From: Rubrivirga marina
GTDB lineage: Bacteria; Bacteroidota; Rhodothermia; Rhodothermales; Rubricoccaceae
Direction: 5' to 3'
DNA length: 64,000 nt
NCBI RefSeq assembly: GCF_002283365.1
Contig: NZ_MQWD01000001.1
Location: 1,683,154-1,747,153 of the forward strand
Part shown: positions 1,467 through 29,453 of the stretch, in pieces
Numbering within the stretch: the stretch's first letter is position 1
Layout: each line of letters opens with the position of its first letter
Made by a program: the position numbers and the translations under genes
The notes under the pieces: model-generated
Told to the model about the DNA's origin: nothing
Seen by the model: the letters and a program-made list of their open reading frames with translations, nothing else
The model's database searches: none

Positions 1467-2156
1467 TTACTGGCCGCCGATGAGTTCGCGGAGCCGCCCC
1501 TCGACGATGTCGTCGTGGTGATCGCGGCGGTCGGAGAGCTCCTGTCGGGCGGCATCCAGGCGCTGCGCGGCGACCGAAATCTCGCCCTCGCGGATTTCGT
1601 GGTGGAGGTCGAGGAGGTCCGAGAGGAGGTCGCGGAGCTGGCCGCGAAGGCGCGTCCGCTCGGGGCCGCTCGGGAGGGCGCGGATCCGGGCCGCGAGCGC
1701 GTCGGACTCGGTCTGCATCGCGGCGGCCTCCTGCATCCGGTCGTAGAGGTCCCCGTCGCGAGAGGCGACGTCGCGCATGTAGGCGGCCTCGACGATGGGT
1801 GAGACCTCCTCCTCCGGCATGGGGGCGGCCTCCGTCTCGGCCACGTCGCCCATGATGTAGACGCCACGGCCGGGCCGGCTGGACTCCGACATGGTGACGA
1901 GCCGCTCGTTCTCGAGGACGTAGGCCTCGCCGTCGATCTCGAGGACGGGGGCGAGGGGGCCGCTGTACTCGAGCGGGGCCATCGCGAAGCCGGTCAGGTC
2001 GAGTCCGTCGGGCACGGCGTCGGGCAGGAGCCGACCGTCGAGGTAGATCTGGCCGTCCCGGAGCTCAAACGTGTGGACGACCTCCTCGGTCTGCGCGGAG
2101 GGCGCAGCCGCGACGGCGAGGGCGAGCACGCACGCGGCGATCAGGCGTCGGATCAT
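1467..2156 (-). CDS. Secreted protein of unknown function, coiled-coil C-terminus
   Basis: 229 residues from the ATG at 2156. The N-terminus MIRRLIAACVLALAVAAAPSAQ is a clear signal peptide. The next 110 residues are mixed and acidic; the C-terminal 90 residues are rich in Arg, Glu, Leu and Asp and likely form a helical hairpin or coiled coil. The start overlaps the stop of the upstream gene (ATGA, 2153-2156), so the two are translationally coupled. It is the last gene of the sigma-factor operon. I do not recognise a family. A periplasmic partner of the membrane regulator is one possibility, but this is inference. Confidence 0.75.
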   Translation of the reverse strand: MIRRLIAACVLALAVAAAPSAQTEEVVHTFELRDGQIYLDGRLLPDAVPDGLDLTGFAMAPLEYSGPLAPVLEIDGEAYVLENERLVTMSESSRPGRGVYIMGDVAETEAAPMPEEEVSPIVEAAYMRDVASRDGDLYDRMQEAAAMQTESDALAARIRALPSGPERTRLRGQLRDLLSDLLDLHHEIREGEISVAAQRLDAARQELSDRRDHHDDIVEGRLRELIGGQ

Positions 2157-27906: not shown

Positions 27907-27909
27907 TCT

Positions 27910-27992
27910 CGGCATCTCCACATGAAAACAGATGAGTCCCCGCCCTGTCGAACACAGGGCGGGGACTCATCTGTTTTCATGTGGAGATGCCG
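27910..27992. repeat. 39-bp perfect palindrome at the 3' end of ssrA
   Basis: Left arm 27910-27948 and right arm 27954-27992 are exact complements around a 5-nt loop (CGAAC). The inner 24 bp (AAAACAGATGAG..CCCTGT and its complement) look like an intrinsic terminator with A/T tracts on both sides. The outer part duplicates, in inverted orientation, the last 11 nt of the tmRNA gene (GGCATCTCCA end). Confidence 0.9.
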
Positions 27993-28354
27993 GGAGTCGA
28001 ACCCGGGTCCGAAAGGCGCTACAGTCCAGGCGTCTACGCGCGTAGTCAGCGCTTTGAGGTCTTTGCTCCGCTGGCAGGGCCCGCTGACGGGCTTCCGGTG
28101 GAGCGCAGGCTGATTAGCTCTCGTCCGTCGGGCTCAGCCGGAGCCTTCGGGACCAGCTCACTCTAGTCGGTGCTCTGTACGTCGATAGTGAGCGTCCGGT
28201 GTACAGAACAGCTAGCGGCGTGTATTACGCGGCCAGCGAGTAGGAGTAGTCGTTCGCAGCTACAATTGCGTTCCGATGGGTGTCACGGGCGTATCGGACA
28301 CCACCCGGCGCGCGGCCTGCCGCACGAGCCTCTCGTCGAAACCGTGTCATCCCC
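27982..28354 (-). ncRNA. ssrA: tmRNA (ssrA), tag peptide ANDYSYSLAA
   Basis: 373 nt. The 5' end GGGGAUG (28354-28348) pairs with the 3' CAUCUCC, with the conserved G-U at pair 3, to make the alanine acceptor stem. Discriminator A is at 27982 and CCA is not encoded. 5' landmarks GACACGGUUUCGACG and the T-arm GGGUUCGACUCCC are present. The resume codon GCG starts the tag reading frame at 28257: A-N-D-Y-S-Y-S-L-A-A, stop UAA at 28227-28225. Together with the alanine carried by the tmRNA, this gives an 11-residue degradation tag. It rescues stalled ribosomes with SmpB. It is transcribed 65 nt downstream of a lipoprotein gene on the same strand. Confidence 0.97.
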
Positions 28355-28418: not shown

Positions 28419-28859
28419 CTACTCCGTCGCGTCTTCATCTCGGTCGCGCGGCGTCCCGAGGGGGACGAGGCCCCGTTCTGAGAGGGCCGTCGACAAGGGG
28501 CCGAGGACCGATCGGCGGAGGTCTCCGTCGAGGGCGTAGACCTTCGTTCGCCCGCCCAGCCAGGACCGCTTCTCGGCGCGGACGTAGACCCGGACGAACC
28601 CGCCGTCGAGCGGGACGAGGTCGAGCACCGCATCCGTCCGCGAGCCGAGGCCAGAGGCCACCTGCCTCGGTGCCGTCGTGACCACAGCGGGGTCGAGCGA
28701 CTCCGCCAGCGCCCAGCCGGCGTCCGAGGCGGCCTCCTGCAGAAGCGTCGTCACGTCACTCGGCTCTGCGCGCACCTCGTAGTCCCGATAGGGCGGGCTG
28801 AGGCGCGGGGCGCAGGCCGTGAGGGCCAGGACCGAGAGCAGGACGAGAACGCGGACCAT
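28419..28859 (-). CDS. Small lipoprotein of unknown function
   Basis: 146 residues. Lipobox in MVRVLVLLSVLALTAC. The mature part has a helix (VTTLLQEAASDAGWALAESL) and strands (VRVYVRAEKRSWLGGRTKVYAL), an alpha+beta fold seen in many small periplasmic domains. No family recognised. Its start lies 42 nt downstream of a strong terminator that ends the structured RNA, so the two could form an attenuated unit, or the gene has its own promoter in the 42 nt. Confidence 0.75.
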   Translation of the reverse strand: MVRVLVLLSVLALTACAPRLSPPYRDYEVRAEPSDVTTLLQEAASDAGWALAESLDPAVVTTAPRQVASGLGSRTDAVLDLVPLDGGFVRVYVRAEKRSWLGGRTKVYALDGDLRRSVLGPLSTALSERGLVPLGTPRDRDEDATE

Positions 28860-28900
28860 GACGAGCAGACTAGCACCACCGTTCTGCCAGCGCGAGGGAC

Positions 28901-28945
28901 AAAAAAAGCCGGGCGGACACGCTCACCCGTACGTGTCCGCCCGGC
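28901..28945 (-). terminator. Intrinsic terminator of the structured RNA
   Basis: GCCGGGCGGACACG and its exact complement around a 10-nt loop, followed on the minus strand by TTTTTTT. The clearest terminator in the window. Confidence 0.9.
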
Positions 28946-29212
28946 GTGCGCGGGCCGAAGCCGCGGTGCGCACTAGGTATCGCTCTGTCACGTCCCCGGC
29001 ATCGCGTGCCGCTTGGGACGTGCTGGATCTTCTGACAAGGGCCGTGCCAAGCGCCCGTCCGTTCGGAAAGCGTGGCCTCCGAGGTGCCCCGTGGACCCGG
29101 TTCGACCCCCACCCGGATTGGCCGTCCATCCCAGTGGACGAGGCTGTCGCCAATCCGGTACGCTCTCTGGTTGCGGGCCCCGCTCCGCTCGCAGAGGACT
29201 GCACTAGGTAAG
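28901..29212 (-). ncRNA. Candidate structured non-coding RNA of about 310 nt
   Basis: Minus-strand transcript ending in a perfect terminator: 14-bp stem (28908-28921 with 28932-28945), then seven U (28907-28901). Upstream are two nested hairpins of the same design. One pairs CCGGATTGGC (29158-29149) with GCCAATCCGG (29122-29113) around an inner CGTCCA/TGGACG stem. The other pairs CACGTCCC with GGGACGTG (29022 to 28991 region) around GGCA/TGCC. TACCTAGTGC occurs as a direct repeat near both ends (29211-29202 and 28979-28970). No ORF explains the conserved-looking pairing. I found no landmarks of RNase P RNA, SRP RNA, tRNA or a second tmRNA. The 5' end is approximate. Confidence 0.55.
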
Positions 29213-29282
29213 AGGATCAGGCGCTTAGGGACACGGGCGGAGGCACGGGCGCGTGAAGCCTCGGTCAGAACCCCGCATCGGG

Positions 29283-29313
29283 TTGAGAGAGTTGGCAGGC
29301 GGCCCTACCTTTG
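29283..29313 (+). promoter_or_regulatory. Bacteroidota-type promoter of the AURKAIP1-type ribosomal protein gene
   Basis: TTG (29283-29285), 20 nt, TACCTTTG (29306-29313): an exact match to TTG-N17-23-TAnnTTTG, 44 nt before the ATG. Confidence 0.75.
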
Positions 29314-29357
29314 CTCTCTACGGCCCGAACGACCTACTCACTCAACCTTAGGCCTCT

Positions 29358-29453
29358 ATGCCCTGCGGACGCAAGCGCAAGCGCCACAAGATCGCGACCC
29401 ACAAGCGGAAGAAGCGGCTTCGCAAGAACCGCCACAAGAAGAAGGGCCGCTAG
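29358..29453 (+). CDS. AURKAIP1/COX24-domain ribosomal protein (bS22/mS38-like), 31 residues
   Basis: ATG at 29358 to TAG at 29451-29453. The peptide begins MPCGRKRKRHKIATHKRKKR and ends LRKNRHKKKGR; over half the residues are Lys or Arg. This is the short AURKAIP1/COX24-type protein of Bacteroidota, related to the mitochondrial small-subunit protein mS38. Its size puts it below most gene-calling limits. It has the best promoter in the window, as expected for a ribosomal gene. Confidence 0.88.
   Translation: MPCGRKRKRHKIATHKRKKRLRKNRHKKKGR

Follow-up and report, generated by a model that had tools for sequence, protein, structure and literature searches.

The window analysed here, that is, the whole stretch of 64,000 nucleotides of Rubrivirga marina DNA, contains at positions 28860-29357 a gap between divergent genes that start at 29358 and 28859. 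The sequence-only reading had placed there a structured RNA of 312 nt with its own terminator and no coding gene, and we too found no convincing gene inside the gap. The features that we recognise in it and on either side, some of them predicted, are the following:

27979-28354: ssrA (tmRNA), lying beyond the lipoprotein gene.
28419-28859, minus strand: lipoprotein gene, an open reading frame with the lipobox LTAC; it is the downstream neighbour of the RNA and lies outside it.
28867-28872, minus strand: -10-like box TAGTCT, 7 nt upstream of the lipoprotein start codon (ATG), read from the sequence; a similar box is seen by eye in relatives.
28901-29023, minus strand: predicted small RNA of 123 nt, with a 5' end deduced from the sigma-54 spacing and a 3' end given by the T run.
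28901-28945, minus strand: terminator hairpin and T run, with a covarying stem and the loop core GGGUGAG at 28928-28922.
28946-28973, minus strand: hairpin 2 (GTGCGC...GCGCAC), whose pairs are kept in 5/5 of the own-genus set.
28989-29022, minus strand: hairpin 1 (CACGTCCC...GGGACGTG), seen in the consensus fold of the own-genus set, where pairs show changes on both sides.
29035-29050, minus strand: predicted sigma-54 promoter TTGGCACGGCCCTTGT (-24/-12), a motif conserved in orthologues.
29123-29140, minus strand: putative activator-binding dyad CGTCCACTGGGATGGACG (CGTC-N10-GACG), ~117 bp upstream of the predicted start.
29358-29453, plus strand: 31-codon small basic gene (MPCGRKRKRHKIATHKRKKRLRKNRHKKKGR).

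The small basic gene, which we take to be AURKAIP1/COX24-like, is preceded on the plus strand by its putative promoter, TACCTTTG (29306-29313), which matches the -7 element TAnnTTTG of Bacteroidota. On the other side of the locus, a 42-bp inverted repeat, 98% perfect and with a 5-nt spacer, lies at 27907-27995. Its start lies within the 3' end of ssrA, whose last ~17 bases thus recur in inverted orientation past the gene; the repeat is probably the ssrA terminator or the trace of an integration site.

The minus-strand terminator with seven T ending at 28901, already described from the sequence, is real: the hairpin GCCGGGCGGACACGTACGGGTGAGCGTGTCCGCCCGGC spans 28945-28908, its perfect arms are GCCGGGCGGACACG and CGTGTCCGCCCGGC, and the seven T occupy 28907-28901. 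Compensatory changes, for which the sequence-only reading had suggested comparing orthologues, are plentiful in this stem, where 11 of the 15 pairs have changed on both sides and 99% of cells are paired. Both-sided cells number 92 (shuffles, 25.3; slid structures, 3-10), and the covariation score reaches 0.498 as compared with 0.261 for shuffled alignments and no more than 0.164 when the structure is slid. The sequence of the stem varies freely; the loop core GGGUGA is near-fixed across families. Since termination needs a stem and no particular loop, we infer that this loop is probably functional.

Full-length MAFFT alignments across families are too poor in the body of the RNA for a full-length covariance model, and we therefore claim covariation strictly for the terminator, with the family-wise folds as supporting evidence. 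On average the RNA bodies are more stably folded than their shuffles (mean z -2.34, with 35/42 below -1), and hairpin 2 is weak as a covariation test because its pairs are mostly invariant. Folded as a single sequence, the whole 321 nt are only mildly stabler than shuffles (z -1.67); our evidence rests on comparison and not on single-sequence folding. The bodies share a motif, CCUCC, which is found in 39 of 44 (5.45 expected) and in at least two copies in 15 of 44 (0.28 expected). Within hairpin 1 it is unpaired at 0.89, versus 0.36 for the body, and in many families it sits in the loop of that hairpin. The five bodies that lack it are those of our own genus (four genomes, window member included) and of G004, a member of a sister genus in the same family as the window. 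If the two group together, the absence would be one derived loss.

Upstream of the RNA, the pattern TTGGCAC-N5-TTG[TCG] is present in the 13/13 orthologues first compared, with the -12 element 101-127 nt before the terminator loop. The strict sigma-54 pattern TGGCA[CT]N5TTG, counted within 170 nt upstream of the terminator loop, is present in 43 of 45 loci, at a near-fixed distance of 100-153 nt from that loop, where dinucleotide shuffling would lead one to expect 0.068; in four control positions it occurs 0 times. A slightly looser pattern recognises a promoter in 44 loci, with GGCA and TTG invariant in all of them. The sole full orthologue with the terminator loop and no recognisable sigma-54 promoter is L056 of genome G018 (terminator at 1501-1545, minus strand), possibly through a promoter switch. 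All 77 high-quality genomes that represent the order encode rpoN. In the genome of R. marina the sigma-54 activator domain of enhancer-binding proteins is matched strongly eight times, and at least six of these matches carry the sigma-54-contacting motif G[AS]FTGA. Placed 12 nt from the -12 base, the start of the RNA falls at ~29023, and this position is supported by the foot of hairpin 1, which the predicted start meets or adjoins in most orthologues. The extent of 312 nt proposed earlier is wrong, as its 5' 189 nt are predicted to be promoter and activator-binding DNA.

Further upstream, GT-N12-AC dyads occur in 21 of 43 regions, the copy in the window included, against 0.98 expected, and mostly at -95 to -119; none was found in the other 22. 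Dyad and sigma-54 promoter pattern together occur a single time in the R. marina genome, at the present locus, and order-wide 10 of the 13 matches are this locus in its own and other genomes. Of the two nested-hairpin modules that had been described as parts of the RNA, the second is a real RNA hairpin (hairpin 1, 28989-29022), but the first (about 29115-29160) is a DNA dyad that sits upstream of the promoter and whose inner arms are those of CGTCCACTGGGATGGACG. The outer stem of this first module, CCGGATTGGC/GCCAATCCGG, is missing in the three congeners; the inner GTCCA..TGGAC dyad is kept whole or in part in congeners, at about -106 to -118. The direct repeat TACCTAGTGC reported near both ends is present (29201-29210 and 28970-28979), but its two copies are not conserved together: in congeners the inner one is replaced by TACCCAGTGC and TACCAAAGTGC, and the repeat is therefore probably due to chance. 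As to the nature of the activator, Salinibacter-type loci carry TGTCCAATCGGCCGGACA (N10), and this Salinibacter-type version, TGTC-N10-GACA, equals the published QseF consensus, TGTCN10GACA (PMC8745638). This provides a lead to the class of activator and not an identification, and that a QseF homologue may bind the dyad at this locus is a guess.

How widespread is this arrangement? BLAST against 40 related genomes found the region, most strongly in its 3' third. We then searched 114 genomes of the order with R1, a covariance model built on 46 nt of the terminator, and 64 of them gave matches at E<=0.01; the weaker matches, once fetched and inspected, were ordinary gene terminators, except for three true members. 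With the flanking sequence taken into account, the same unit is found in 47 genomes and, split over two contigs, in G007, which amounts to ~48 of 114 genomes and 9 of 15 families. The draft assembly of G007 is interrupted within the small RNA, past the promoter and ahead of the terminator, leaving one part at the end of contig C38 (L121) and the other at the start of C48 (L011). Outside the order, a phylum-wide search with the terminator model returned matches of at most 38.8 bits, none of them convincing; the three best are ordinary terminators by eye, without the GGGTGA loop or the promoter. Scanning 84,980 species genomes for the combined pattern of promoter and loop gave 17 matches, 11 of which have the terminator hairpin and all bear Rhodothermia, Salinibacter, Roseithermus or Bacteroidetes titles, Roseithermus sacchariphilus and Salinibacter altiplanensis among them. 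The other six have no proper stem, and their count fits the chance level. The RNA was not found in the viral contigs searched. Conservation across the order, together with the conserved sigma-54 promoter and the covariation of the terminator stem, makes an independent minus-strand RNA with its own terminator a well-supported reading of these sequences.

No known family accounts for it. Rfam, at the gathering score and at permissive E-values (up to 5), returned only tmRNA and no match to the RNA, and the sub-threshold matches to sbcD (16.8 of 40 bits), Scr3202 (26.2 of 52) and CC3513 (22.5 of 40) were set aside as chance. The gap holds no match to models of RNase P, SRP, tRNA or tmRNA, in line with what had been read from the sequence, and RNase P was found elsewhere in the genome. 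The 6S model (RF00013) has no match in the gap or anywhere in the R. marina genome at E<=10. GlmY and GlmZ of Enterobacterales (RF00128/RF00083) gave no match, neither at the gathering score nor with E-values as high as 5. They are likewise intergenic sRNAs with a sigma-54 promoter and upstream activator dyads (QseF/GlrR), but the Rhodothermales RNA has other hairpins, loops and neighbours, and Hfq was not detected in the 20 genomes searched. Qrr, CrcZ and Pxr are sigma-54-dependent sRNAs of Vibrio, Pseudomonas and Myxococcus, and each is, as we propose for ours, one sRNA with an intrinsic terminator under sigma-54 and an enhancer-binding protein; however, they are unrelated to it by Rfam search, belong to other phyla and have different conserved motifs. 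Exposed C-rich anti-Shine-Dalgarno loops are found in CUCCUCCC-type RNAs of alphaproteobacteria and in the UCCC loops of Staphylococcus. Many Rhodothermales families likewise expose CCUCC in a hairpin loop, although the motif is shorter here, homology is not established and the motif is lost in our own genus. Our literature search found no paper joining Rhodothermales and sRNA. The kind, a sigma-54-driven sRNA, is thus known from Proteobacteria and others, and the Rhodothermales family appears to be new.

We propose, with a probability of roughly 0.78, that the locus encodes a member, ~123 nt long here, of a family of trans-acting and Hfq-independent sRNAs controlled by sigma-54 and an enhancer-binding protein. 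RNA polymerase carrying RpoN would be activated by an NtrC-type enhancer-binding protein at the dyad ~117 bp upstream, so that the RNA would be made under a specific signal only. It would then pair in trans with mRNAs through its exposed loops and without Hfq, a protein that was not detected in 20/20 genomes searched (R. marina and relatives), control genomes being positive. The GGGUGA terminator loop may be the pairing site in all members, and the CCUCC loops, complementary to Shine-Dalgarno-like GGAGG, a pairing site in most families; our own genus, having lost CCUCC, would be left with the terminator loop and with lineage-specific loops. A search of eight genomes for possible targets of the terminator loop, marked by GCTCACCC ahead of an ATG, gave totals that exceeded the reversed control in some genomes and fell short of it in others. 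GGAGG precedes 2 of 29 roughly placed starts in the window, a small sample, against 1.9 expected, and this lack of enrichment of Shine-Dalgarno motifs makes an anti-Shine-Dalgarno role uncertain, at least here. In the window member, as in its four nearest relatives, the unpaired CCUCC loop that such a role would call for is absent. Anti-Shine-Dalgarno action is a possibility in other Rhodothermales families and is not claimed for our own.

An alternative of lower but appreciable probability is that the RNA mainly binds a protein through its invariant terminator loop, as a sponge or scaffold comparable to CsrB/RsmZ or 6S, rather than pairing with mRNAs. Indeed, no sequence but GGGUGA is shared by every member, and the stem that bears it varies freely; the repeated CCUCC loops of many members would also fit a repeated protein site, and the absence of a 6S match in the genome also speaks for this alternative. 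Yet there is no long bulged rod of the 6S type, neither the length of 100-155 nt nor the strongly changing body points to a protein scaffold, sigma-54 control would be unusual for 6S, and there is no candidate protein.

The sequence-only reading had hesitated between an independent RNA and a long attenuator leader of the lipoprotein gene, and of these the first is supported and the second is not. In the second case the RNA would be a cis-regulatory 5' UTR, with the terminator read through under some condition. Such an arrangement would suit the short distance of about 42 nt between the T run and the lipoprotein ATG, and a lipoprotein homologue does follow the RNA in about 25 loci, in our own family and several others. 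The downstream gene nevertheless varies between families: in the f13 genomes it is ssb, which starts some +220 to +365 from the loop, or a gene for a peptidyl-prolyl isomerase (+146), an alpha/beta-hydrolase gene precedes the RNA (names assigned by eye from the sequences), and promoter, RNA and terminator persist. Because the downstream gene changes while the promoter and the RNA stay, we do not regard the RNA as a lipoprotein leader. Moreover, to judge from the -10-like box just ahead of its ATG, the lipoprotein gene may have its own promoter and a leaderless message, and a non-exhaustive look revealed no alternative antiterminator pairing. Taken together, we judge a leader to be quite improbable. 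That the locus is an ordinary terminator next to intergenic DNA with chance hairpins fits the modest single-sequence fold and the abundance of strong terminators in these GC-rich genomes, but it is extremely unlikely given that promoter, spacing, dyads, loop and motifs are conserved and that the ordinary terminators found by R1 are devoid of this combination.

Returning to the sigma-54-controlled sRNA, one could speculate, at clearly less than even odds, that an order-wide Hfq-free sRNA puts the translation of many mRNAs under sigma-54 through its CCUCC and GGGUGA loops, the terminator doubling as active site and our own genus keeping the terminator loop alone. Regulatory RNAs of Rhodothermales appear almost unstudied, and this one is a deeply conserved and clearly bounded candidate for which a start, an end, a sigma factor and an activator site can be predicted. 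It offers a test case for base-pairing RNAs that work without Hfq, for the targets of sigma-54 in the order and for selection acting on the loop of a terminator, and it adds an RNA family that is missing from Rfam.
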